A DNA stretch of 64,000 bases, taken from the NCBI GenBank assembly GCA_017438745.1, contig JAFRUS010000088.1, positions 1-64,000 of the forward strand. The letters run 5' to 3'. This document shows positions 8,317-61,469 of the stretch, piece by piece. The position numbers and the translations under genes were made by a program. The DNA is from Oscillospiraceae bacterium. Its GTDB lineage: Bacteria; Bacillota; Clostridia; Oscillospirales; Ruminococcaceae. The stretch's first letter is position 1. Every line of letters begins with the position of its first letter. Below the pieces are notes generated by a model. The model was not told the DNA's origin. It ran no database searches and saw nothing but the letters and a program-made list of their open reading frames with translations.

Positions 8317-8856
8317 ATGCGTGATCTGAACATCAATTTTATGGATCTGTATAAACGAGTGGATCGGTTTATCAAAGACGCTTATCATTCGTCGGAGGGT
8401 GTATCTGAATACATCAGGATAATGGAAAGCAAAGATTCCAAAGGAAGAAGATACGTATCCGGCTGGAACAGTGATTATGATTCCTTAAAGCACTTACGAT
8501 GGATAAGAAATCAGCTGGCACATGAAGTTGACTATGATTCAGATATCTGTTCTGAAGAAGAATACGAATGGCTCGAAGAGTTTCACAGTAGATTGTTTTC
8601 TGCTGATGATCCTCTGGGAAAGCTGCGTAAAGCTGAAAACGCAATGGAACTTGAACAAAAGAAGAAACGTGAAATTGCGAACAGACAGAAAAAAGCTGAG
8701 TCATCAAATGATAATATAGAAATCAATTATTCAGAAAATATACAGAATAATTCTGAAGATAATCAGTCTTCGGCTATACTTGCAGGATGTCTCAGAATTA
8801 TTGTATTAATATTCTTAGTGTTACTACTGATCATCTTTTTTCTTATATTCAGATAA
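8317..8856 (+). CDS. HEPN-motif protein with C-terminal membrane anchor
   Basis: The 179-residue protein is alpha-helical at the N-terminus and contains LRWIRNQLAHE, in which R64 and H69 form the RX4H pair typical of HEPN domains (RNA-cleaving or nucleotidylated toxins). The middle is a charged helix, and residues about 155-178 are a single strongly hydrophobic segment ending in IFR, so the protein is probably tail-anchored with the HEPN part in the cytoplasm. AAGGAGG precedes the ATG. It resembles a clostridial family I associate with the DUF6548 label (low certainty). The next gene carries the same motif. Confidence 0.6.
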   Translation: MRDLNINFMDLYKRVDRFIKDAYHSSEGVSEYIRIMESKDSKGRRYVSGWNSDYDSLKHLRWIRNQLAHEVDYDSDICSEEEYEWLEEFHSRLFSADDPLGKLRKAENAMELEQKKKREIANRQKKAESSNDNIEINYSENIQNNSEDNQSSAILAGCLRIIVLIFLVLLLIIFFLIFR

Positions 8857-59237: not shown

Positions 59238-59266
59238 TTGACAAACTTTGACTGTTATTGTATAAT
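59238..59266 (+). promoter_or_regulatory. Promoter of SCIFF gene
   Basis: TTGACA (59238-59243), 17 bp, TATAAT (59261-59266): a consensus sigma-A promoter, 36 bp before the ATG, suggesting strong constitutive expression. Confidence 0.9.
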
Positions 59267-59302: not shown

Positions 59303-59566
59303 ATGAACAGAATACAGTCAATTGAAACAAGAGACCTCAGAAACGCAGAAGGCGGATGCGGCGAATGCCAGACATCATGTCAGTCAGCTTGTAAGACATC
59401 ATGCGGCGTAGCTAACCAGCCTTGCGAAAGCACAGGAAGAATCAGAACTATTACAACACGCGGCCTCAGAAATGCAGAAGGCGGATGCGGCGAATGCCAG
59501 ACATCATGCCAGTCAGCATGCAAGACATCATGCGGTGTTGCTAATCAGCCTTGTGAAAGAAACTGA
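59303..59566 (+). CDS. SCIFF ranthipeptide precursor with tandem leader-core duplication
   Basis: The 87-residue protein contains two copies of a 40-residue unit, residues 3-42 and 46-85, joined by STG. Each has a leader-like RIQSIETRDLRNAEGG or RIRTITTRGLRNAEGG, then the SCIFF core CGECQTSCQSACKTSC, with GVANQPCE; six cysteines each. Known SCIFF precursors (six cysteines in forty-five residues) carry one such unit of about 45 residues. The adjacent maturase should link Cys sulfurs to backbone or side-chain carbons. Strong promoter; terminator before the maturase gene. Confidence 0.9.
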   Translation: MNRIQSIETRDLRNAEGGCGECQTSCQSACKTSCGVANQPCESTGRIRTITTRGLRNAEGGCGECQTSCQSACKTSCGVANQPCERN

Positions 59567-59628
59567 TCGTTTCTGAAAAAACAAAGTAAATGACAGTTAT
59601 CTGTCGTTTGCACATTATCAAAATACAG

Positions 59629-59660
59629 TAAGCCGAAGCCCTCTGACTTCGGCTTTACTT
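59629..59660 (+). terminator. Terminator/attenuator between SCIFF and maturase genes
   Basis: AAGCCGAAG and CTTCGGCTT (9 bp) around CCCTCTGA, followed by TACTTAC, a weak T-tract. Partial read-through would keep maturase levels below precursor levels. Confidence 0.7.
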
Positions 59661-59678
59661 ACGTAATAAGGAGTATTA

Positions 59679-61067
59679 ATGGTTCATCAGTATAAACTTA
59701 ACGGATACAATATTGTTATTGACGTTTACAGTGGTTCGATCCACGTTGTGGATGACGTTGCCTATGATGTTATAGCAGAATATGAAGGAAATTCGAGAGA
59801 ACAGATAGTTGAGAAGCTTATGCCTGTACACGGCAAAAACGGCGTGACGGAAAATGATATTCTCATGTGCATTGACGATGTGGAAGCGCTGAAAAAGGAC
59901 GAGAGACTTTTTACTGAAGATATCTTTGCTGACAAAGCTTCAAAGCTTAAGAATAACTCAAATACTGTAAAGGCTCTTTGTCTTCACGTAGCACACACAT
60001 GTAACCTTAACTGTTCCTATTGTTTCGCAAGTCAGGGCAAATATCAGGGCGAACGCGGGCTCATGAGTTTTGAAGTGGGAAAGAGAGCACTTGATTTCCT
60101 CATCGAAAACTCAGGTACCAGAAGAAACCTTGAAGTTGACTTTTTCGGCGGCGAGCCTTTAATGAACTGGGATGTTGTAAAGCAGCTTGTTAAATACGCA
60201 AGGGAAGTAGAGAAGGATGCCGGCAAGAACTTCAGATTCACGCTGACAACAAACGGTGTTCTTGTTGACGATGAAGTTATCGACTTCTGCAATAAGGAAA
60301 TGCACAACGTGGTTCTAAGTCTTGACGGACGCAAGGAAGTTCATGACCGTTTCCGTGTTGACTATGCAGGAAACGGAAGTTACGACAAGATCGTTCCTAA
60401 GTTCCAGCATTTCGTGGAAAGACGCGGCGACAGGAACTACTACATGCGTGGTACATTCACTCACTTCAATCCTGACTTTACAAACGATATTTTCCATATG
60501 GCTGATCTCGGTTTCAAGGAACTTTCCATGGAACCTGTAGTCTGTGCTCCTGATGATCCTTCTGCACTTACTGAGGATGATATCACGAAGGTATTTGAAC
60601 AGTACGAGATACTTGCAAAGGAAATGATAAAAAGATACAAGAACGGAAACGGATTTACCTTCTATCATTACATGATTGATCTTCAGAACGGCCCTTGCAT
60701 TTACAAGAGACTTTCAGGATGCGGATCAGGTACGGAATATCTTGCGGTTACGCCGTGGGGAGATCTTTATCCATGTCATCAGTTTGTCGGCGACGAGGAA
60801 TATCTCATGGGCAACATTTATGACGGTGTTACCAATACGGAAATGCGCGAAAAATTCAGAAAGTGCAATATCTATTCACGTCCTGACTGTGCTGACTGCT
60901 GGGCAAAACTCTACTGCTCAGGCGGATGTGCTGCCAATGCTTATCATGCAACAGGAGATATAACCGGAATTTATGAACCGGGATGTCGTCTTTTCAGAAA
61001 GCGTATCGAATGTGCAATAATGATGCAGATAGCTAATGCAGATATAGATAATGAGCAAAATGCATAA
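59679..61067 (+). CDS. SCIFF radical SAM maturase (ranthipeptide synthase)
   Basis: The 462-residue protein has C108-x3-C112-x2-C115 (HTCNLNCSYCFASQG), a DFFGGEPLMNWDVV block, and a C-terminal SPASM region with CGSGTEYLAVTPWGDLYPCH and SRPDCADCWAKLYCSGGCAA, GCRLFRKRIEC for auxiliary 4Fe-4S clusters. N-terminal 90 residues form the RRE-like peptide-binding part (IDVYSGSIHVVDDVAYDVIA). It installs thioether links in SCIFF (CteB-type). AAGGAG precedes the ATG, 112 bp after the precursor. Confidence 0.95.
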   Translation: MVHQYKLNGYNIVIDVYSGSIHVVDDVAYDVIAEYEGNSREQIVEKLMPVHGKNGVTENDILMCIDDVEALKKDERLFTEDIFADKASKLKNNSNTVKALCLHVAHTCNLNCSYCFASQGKYQGERGLMSFEVGKRALDFLIENSGTRRNLEVDFFGGEPLMNWDVVKQLVKYAREVEKDAGKNFRFTLTTNGVLVDDEVIDFCNKEMHNVVLSLDGRKEVHDRFRVDYAGNGSYDKIVPKFQHFVERRGDRNYYMRGTFTHFNPDFTNDIFHMADLGFKELSMEPVVCAPDDPSALTEDDITKVFEQYEILAKEMIKRYKNGNGFTFYHYMIDLQNGPCIYKRLSGCGSGTEYLAVTPWGDLYPCHQFVGDEEYLMGNIYDGVTNTEMREKFRKCNIYSRPDCADCWAKLYCSGGCAANAYHATGDITGIYEPGCRLFRKRIECAIMMQIANADIDNEQNA

Positions 61068-61160: not shown

Positions 61161-61189
61161 TTGACATAATCATACTAATAATATATAAT
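61161..61189 (+). promoter_or_regulatory. Promoter of AbrB-like regulator gene
   Basis: TTGACA (61161-61166), 17 bp, TATAAT (61184-61189); AGGAGG follows at 61212. Confidence 0.9.
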
Positions 61190-61229: not shown

Positions 61230-61469
61230 ATGAAATCAACAGGTATTGTAAGAAAAATCGACGAACTCGGCAGAATCGTATTACCAAAGGAACTCAGAAG
61301 AACTCTTGGTCTTAACGACAGAGAAAGCGTAGAAATCTACGTTGATCAGGACGCTATCATCCTCAAGAAGTTCAAGTCAACATGCGTTCTCTGCGGCGAT
61401 AACGAAGACCTTCTCGACTTCAAGGGCAAGAGTATCTGCCAGAAGTGCATGAACGAACTCAAGAAGTAA
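61230..61469 (+). CDS. AbrB-family transcriptional regulator with zinc ribbon
   Basis: The 79-residue protein has an AbrB/SpoVT swapped-hairpin domain (STGIVRKIDELGRIVLPKEL, then RRTLGL at 3-28) and a C-terminal CVLCGDNEDLL...CQKC zinc ribbon (C52, C55, C71, C74). It is the size of AbrB/Abh but with the zinc ribbon that clostridial paralogues carry. It probably binds AT-rich DNA as a tetramer and regulates transition-state or surface genes. Confidence 0.9.
   Translation: MKSTGIVRKIDELGRIVLPKELRRTLGLNDRESVEIYVDQDAIILKKFKSTCVLCGDNEDLLDFKGKSICQKCMNELKK

Follow-up and report, generated by a model that had tools for sequence, protein, structure and literature searches.

To our knowledge, all SCIFF members that have been described biochemically consist of a single unit. 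In the 64,000-nucleotide stretch of an Oscillospiraceae bacterium genome (GCA_017438745.1, contig JAFRUS010000088.1, positions 1–64,000) that was analyzed here, hereafter referred to as the window, a SCIFF precursor gene carries both the leader and the core twice in one open reading frame (ORF). This locus raises the questions of whether the two-unit architecture is real, how widespread and how old it is, and what it might provide. As a natural substrate with two leader–core units, it also offers a way to ask if the maturase ScfB requires the adjacent leader and acts distributively, and at which point the chain is cleaved. SCIFF is described as present in nearly all Clostridia and has been linked to quorum sensing (Chen et al. 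2020, in the account given in PMC8326336), and the role of the peptide is probably signaling. As judged from the sequences, the two-unit SCIFF is a real, rare, and old variant.

Structure of the Window Locus

The features of the precursor and maturase genes are as follows.

59303–59566, + strand: two-unit SCIFF precursor gene, 87 aa (PF13165, 131.3 bits, and TIGR03973, 127.9 bits, two stretches each)
59309–59350, + strand: leader 1, RIQSIETRDLRNAE (residues 3–16), defined by the unit alignment; purifying selection across 35 genes
59351–59428, + strand: core 1, GGCGECQTSCQSACKTSCGVANQPCE (residues 17–42), protein identical to core 2; dN/dS ∼0.02 across 35 genes
59429–59437, + strand: linker STG (residues 43–45), 2–6 residues and variable across 35 genes
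59438–59479, + strand: leader 2, RIRTITTRGLRNAE (residues 46–59), without a start codon; I, T, TR, and L positions as in leader 1
59480–59557, + strand: core 2, GGCGECQTSCQSACKTSCGVANQPCE (residues 60–85), same sequence as core 1
59679–61067, + strand: scfB, radical SAM/SPASM SCIFF maturase, 462 aa (TIGR03974, 770 bits, cut-off 425), with an N-terminal RRE region (about residues 1–95), CX3CX2C at residues 108–115, and Cys columns kept

The curated cut-offs for SCIFF are 50 bits for TIGR03973 and 27 bits for PF13165, and the window ORF, whose translation is MNRIQSIETRDLRNAEGGCGECQTSCQSACKTSCGVANQPCE-STG-RIRTITTRGLRNAEGGCGECQTSCQSACKTSCGVANQPCERN, scored above both. An earlier note on this DNA had described a SCIFF precursor with a duplicated leader and core, made of near-identical 40-residue, six-Cys units joined by STG. 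Both points were borne out: two full SCIFF domains lie in the one ORF, and the units (residues 3–42 and 46–85) are identical at 36 of 40 positions, with six Cys apiece, and are thus within the ∼45-residue definition of SCIFF. The 26-residue GGC...CE core segment shows no difference between the two units, and the DNA repeat within the gene is 110 nt long, with a spacing of 129 and 88% identity. The single-unit state is usual in SCIFF though absent from the definition of the family models, and the window gene departs from it.

No in-frame ATG, GTG, or TTG was found at the beginning of unit 2 in the window gene, so this unit could be produced only within the fusion; an internal start and a pair of separate genes were both ruled out. 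Among the 35 two-unit genes described below, a possible start near unit 2 was seen only in L036 (GTG) and L048 (ATG). An assembly artefact was also ruled out, because four other independently assembled genomes of the genus, one of them in 4 contigs, share the architecture.

An adjacent maturase with an RRE, a CX3CX2C motif, and SPASM cysteines marks a SCIFF locus, and the window has one. The window ScfB matched CteB (5wgg/5why) with an E value of 1e-168 over residues 1–450, and the match includes the RRE because the alignment starts at residue 1. By its sequence, ScfB is intact, complete, and CteB-like through the RRE; in CteA, the leader is a beta strand that lies on the RRE of CteB (Grove et al. 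2017, as presented in PMC8326336). The locus has two cores and one adjoining maturase, and it would be that of a multi-core RiPP if this one enzyme processed both cores. We found no maturase feature peculiar to two-unit substrates, and no protease gene was seen at the locus. At locus L042 (2767–3757), a gene with an HNH-like motif separates the two-unit SCIFF from its maturase.

Distribution of the Two-Unit Architecture

The earlier note had taken SCIFF to be normally single-unit, and three even samples of genomes agree with this. In the family sample, SCIFF was present in 198 of 248 genomes, and among the matches listed, only three members of the window genus had two units. In the order and phylum samples, 292 of 394 and 317 of 398 genomes matched, respectively, and among the matches listed, the window genome was the only one with a match spanning both halves (order) or with two units (phylum). 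The matches were ranked by score, and any two-unit gene would have come first. Within the genus (Ruminococcus), two-unit SCIFF was found in 5 of 11 genomes; the possibility raised earlier that it might be routine there therefore holds in part, for nearly half of the genomes surveyed.

A targeted scan of about 85,000 species detected 33 two-unit loci (L023–L055), and as the scan patterns were biased to the GVANQPC subtype, two-unit forms of other subtypes were possibly missed. Together with the window and genome G001, this gives two-unit genomes in about 35 species, belonging to Ruminococcus, other Oscillospiraceae, Lachnospiraceae, Parvimonas, and Filifactor; beyond the window genome, four of these are its congeners, and 30 lie outside the genus. 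No further SCIFF gene was found in 16 genomes that were searched whole (15 two-unit and one one-unit relative), and no three-unit gene was found among the loci read. Carriage by plasmids or phages was considered and rejected: only single-unit SCIFF occurs in such records, and the lone “plasmid” record is 2.6 Mb long. Eight unannotated fecal contigs filed as “Bacteriophage sp.” (MT836452, MT835472, MT839507, and five more) carry a single-unit SCIFF and are probably bacterial contigs filed under phage. In the open literature searched, we found no description of a tandem or duplicated SCIFF, although an earlier mention may exist elsewhere.

Age of the Architecture and Linked Evolution of the Units

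A maturase tree of 121 rows was built by a quick method with a single support value. On this tree, the two-unit state required 3 changes for 35 genes, in comparison with a mean of 30.5 when the states were shuffled. One clade (support 95) contained 30 two-unit rows and a one-unit row, L057; a second (98) contained five two-unit rows from Parvimonas, Filifactor, and their relatives; and both were nested in one 40-row clade (96). Since the two-unit maturases fall in one or two neighboring clades, the architecture is old by the evidence of this tree. The position of L057, sister to a two-unit row, indicates that one unit was probably lost there, and the tree as a whole is compatible with a single origin followed by losses and also with two or three origins.

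The two units of a gene resemble each other more than either resembles the unit at the same position in other genes. Synonymous codon identity was 0.82–0.83 for units 1 and 2 within genes and 0.47 between genes, and when codons were shuffled within each gene, the expected identity was 0.69 against the observed 0.83, a value reached in 0 of 2,000 shuffles. The last five leader residues were 80% identical within genes and 27–29% identical between genes, and 31 of the 35 two-unit genes had the same core in both units. Some changes are shared by both units of a gene, such as P to A in L042 and Cys32 and Cys36 to Ser in the Parvimonas-type genes L051 and L052. By these patterns, the units evolve together within each gene, either by concerted evolution or by repeated duplication.

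In L051 (2501–2770, Parvimonas parva) and its near relative L052 (1609–1878), the Ser at Cys32 means that neither core retains the mapped thioether donor. The maturase is intact despite the Ser residues, and a SCIFF match was absent in four of six genomes of the genus (Parvimonas).

How the clades came to share the architecture can be read in a different way, namely, as separate duplications in each clade instead of one old duplication homogenized by unit exchange. Units 1 and 2 were mutual nearest relatives in 32 of 64 cases strictly, with 11 tied, and one-unit maturases adjoin both two-unit clades, as separate duplications would predict. The small number of changes on the maturase tree (3 for 35 genes against 30.5) argues in the other direction. 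So does leader position 3, a positional mark common to the clades: every unit 2 has K, R, or V there, and unit 1 often has Q or N. The leaders of the Lachnospiraceae, moreover, show positional orthology within their clade. We therefore regard separate duplications as a somewhat doubtful history.

The earlier note had concluded from the close DNA repeats that the duplication was fairly recent in the window Ruminococcus. The 88% identity of the repeats suggests this at first sight; however, in the window gene, the unit-to-unit codon identity was 0.73, in comparison with 0.69 predicted by codon usage (p = 0.36). There is thus no excess codon identity, and the 88% match is no sign of recency; by this test, the similarity is what codon usage and a fixed protein would give. 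Four congeners of the window genome and 30 species outside the genus also have the architecture. The survey, the maturase tree, and the codon-identity test together rule out a recent duplication, which is hardly credible as a history of this gene.

Selection on Leaders and Cores

If leader 1 served both cores, drift would be predicted in leader 2. Across the 35 genes, leader 2 retained I in 35 of 35, T or S in 35, R at position 8 in 35, and L in 34. The dN/dS values were 0–0.34 for the leaders, with pN well below pS, and ∼0.02 for both cores, and all core Cys were kept in 32 of the 35 genes. Both leaders and both cores are, on these ratios, under purifying selection. The linkers vary in sequence as well as in length (2–6 residues). 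In L054 (2501–2755), decay is unequal: core 1 has KTSS, having lost Cys36, and core 2 has KTSC, so the two cores are not both needed everywhere.

Promoter and Intergenic Region

Two further features lie around the precursor gene.

59238–59266, + strand: sigma-70 consensus promoter TTGACA-N17-TATAAT (12/12 match), starting 65 nt before the start codon
59630–59655, + strand: G+C-rich stem-loop between the precursor and maturase genes (fold of 59560–59690: –33.9 kcal/mol, z = –4.2)

Of the two-unit loci, 23 of 33 had a perfect consensus site upstream, in comparison with 9 of 47 for the one-unit loci of this subtype and 0 of 32 for the family-type loci; because the rows are related, this difference is suggestive only. 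The promoters of one-unit genes in the subtype are good as well, matching on average at 10.8 of 12 positions, and high expression is therefore no special property of two-unit genes. The stem-loop, which a terminator scan places on the minus strand, is a possible attenuator that could reduce expression of the maturase relative to the precursor. A second perfect TTGACA-N17-TATAAT occurs in the window at 61161–61189, upstream of an AbrB/SpoVT-like gene at 61230.

Gain of the Cassette and Decay of the Native SCIFF in Ruminococcus

The native SCIFF of the family has the form MKHIKTINKANLKETAKKGGCGKCQASC..TVANQKCE and lies between yajC (seen in G007) and an nrdD–nrdG block (seen in G003, G004, and G005). 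The cassette of two-unit precursor and maturase is flanked by a dockerin gene and abrB in G000, G001, and G008 and lies in other places in G004 and G006, i.e., at three different sites within the genus. The window maturase shares 51–54% identity with the native-locus maturases of its congeners and 76% with that of the distant one-unit relative L057, and its group is apart from the native-locus group of the genus on the maturase tree. An Orn/Lys/Arg decarboxylase gene lies beside SCIFF at 61 of 80 loci of the subtype but not in the window genus, in which the nearest homologs (34%) are away from SCIFF. These comparisons are best read as a horizontal gain, at a site other than the native SCIFF locus, of a cassette whose maturase is foreign to the family. 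Between G000 and G004, the cassette maturases are 87% identical, as are the PyrD proteins, and this equal divergence fits a gain before these species split, followed by moves.

At the native locus, the SCIFF of G000, G001, G006, and G002 has lost cysteines of its core (27.9 and 45.1 bits against a cut-off of 50). That of G010, on a contig showing the nrdD side, has lost such cysteines likewise, and G008 has the same form; the maturases beside these degenerate genes keep their cluster cysteines. The native SCIFF is canonical in G004 and in the species of the genus without the cassette, apart from G002 and G010, two incomplete genomes in which the cassette was not detected. G004, the nearest relative by native maturase (99), has both an intact native SCIFF and the cassette. 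As native decay is limited to one lineage, it counts statistically as one event. Decay of the native gene after arrival of a foreign two-unit cassette, with one species retaining both, would amount to a natural replacement experiment. In the window genome, the native-position SCIFF lies on contig C3 at 8722–8844 (L020; L190, 6627–8370), scores 27.9 bits with TIGR03973, below the cut-off, and has lost cysteines of its core, and its maturase has kept the Fe-S cysteines while evolving fast; from these features, the system is decaying or re-purposed.

Position of the Thioether Cross-Link

Reviews give the SCIFF link as Cys32–Thr37 from in vitro work and Cys32–Thr34 from co-expression (as summarized in PMC8326336 and PMC8172795), the latter being credited in PMC8326336 to Hudson et al. 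2019. In our data, Thr34 was present in 151 of 151 units (118 distinct precursors), and position 37 was Gly in 110 of 110 GVANQ-type units, including those of the window at 59351–59428 and 59480–59557; the search pattern fixed neighboring residues, so rare variants may have escaped detection, and the proportion of GVANQ units depends on the way in which the loci were located. Both window cores have Cys32 and Thr34, and the Gly at position 37 makes a Cys32–Thr37 link impossible in them. A Cys32–Thr34 non-alpha thioether is possible in both. Thr37 is, by these alignments, dispensable in the large GVANQ subtype, which bears on the discrepancy between Thr34 and Thr37 in the literature.

Proposed Function and Alternatives

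We propose, with a probability of about 0.6, that the core of each unit is docked on one ScfB by its own leader and that two copies of the same thioether peptide are obtained per translation, i.e., that the architecture provides dosage. Each unit pairs a six-Cys core with a predicted RRE-binding leader of its own (R-I-x-T-[LI]-x-T-R-x-L). By analogy with CteB acting on a single CteA, one ScfB would dock each leader in turn and install a thioether in the adjacent core; the suggestion in the earlier note that both cores could be modified is retained as a possibility. Proteolysis in the variable linker or leader 2 region would then release two products, which would share one core sequence, and we infer that the product would be doubled per translation event. 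The consensus promoter precedes a gene whose design would double its product, and the units would be kept alike by purifying selection and unit exchange, either gene conversion or unequal crossing-over. In the Ruminococcus lineage, such a cassette would have been gained horizontally, and the native SCIFF would have lost cysteines of its core afterwards.

The narrow range of linker lengths and the lack of a protease gene at the locus would also suit a chain that is modified on both cores and left uncut, with leader 2 serving as an internal spacer in a two-headed ranthipeptide. Against this, leader 2 keeps leader-motif residues and not spacer residues, the linker sequence is unconserved, and the subtype contains many one-unit genes, so we consider an uncut product unlikely. 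It is quite unlikely that the mature product is a bivalent ranthipeptide, with two cores in one covalent chain, and serves as a ligand distinct from one-unit SCIFF; if it were so, this would explain the decay or new role of the native SCIFF after the cassette was gained. The unequal decay in L054 speaks for a further alternative, in which only one core is the product and the other unit, as a decoy or an internal chaperone, keeps ScfB bound to the substrate. This is very unlikely in view of the equally low dN/dS of the two cores, the retention of all Cys in all but three of the 35 genes, and the two Parvimonas-type genes in which both cores were altered alike. Release of two same-core peptides from one chain is the reading that we prefer.

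Comparison with Known Systems

The window locus resembles the single-unit SCIFF systems, i.e., the thermocellin precursor CteA with CteB and Tte1186a with Tte1186, in its leader, six-Cys core, and adjacent RRE/radical SAM/SPASM maturase, and in its ACKTSC motif with Cys32 and Thr34. It differs from CteA and Tte1186a in having two units in one chain and Gly at residue 37. In plant cyclotide precursors, an N-terminal repeat and the core are repeated together; the window precursor likewise repeats a recognition element with its product, whereas the proteins, enzymes, and chemistry are unrelated. In the multi-core precursors of microviridins and cyanobactins, one leader serves several cores. Microviridin AMdnA (PMC5934393) and the cyanobactins are similar to the window locus in that one enzyme modifies several cores of a precursor, provided that the window chain is processed as proposed; unlike theirs, the window cores each have their own leader and are identical rather than diversified. 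Thurincin H, with its three identical precursor genes thnA1–A3 (PMC8172795), offers a parallel for dosage through repeated identical precursors, but its copies are separate genes rather than a fused chain, and its thioethers are at the alpha-carbon.
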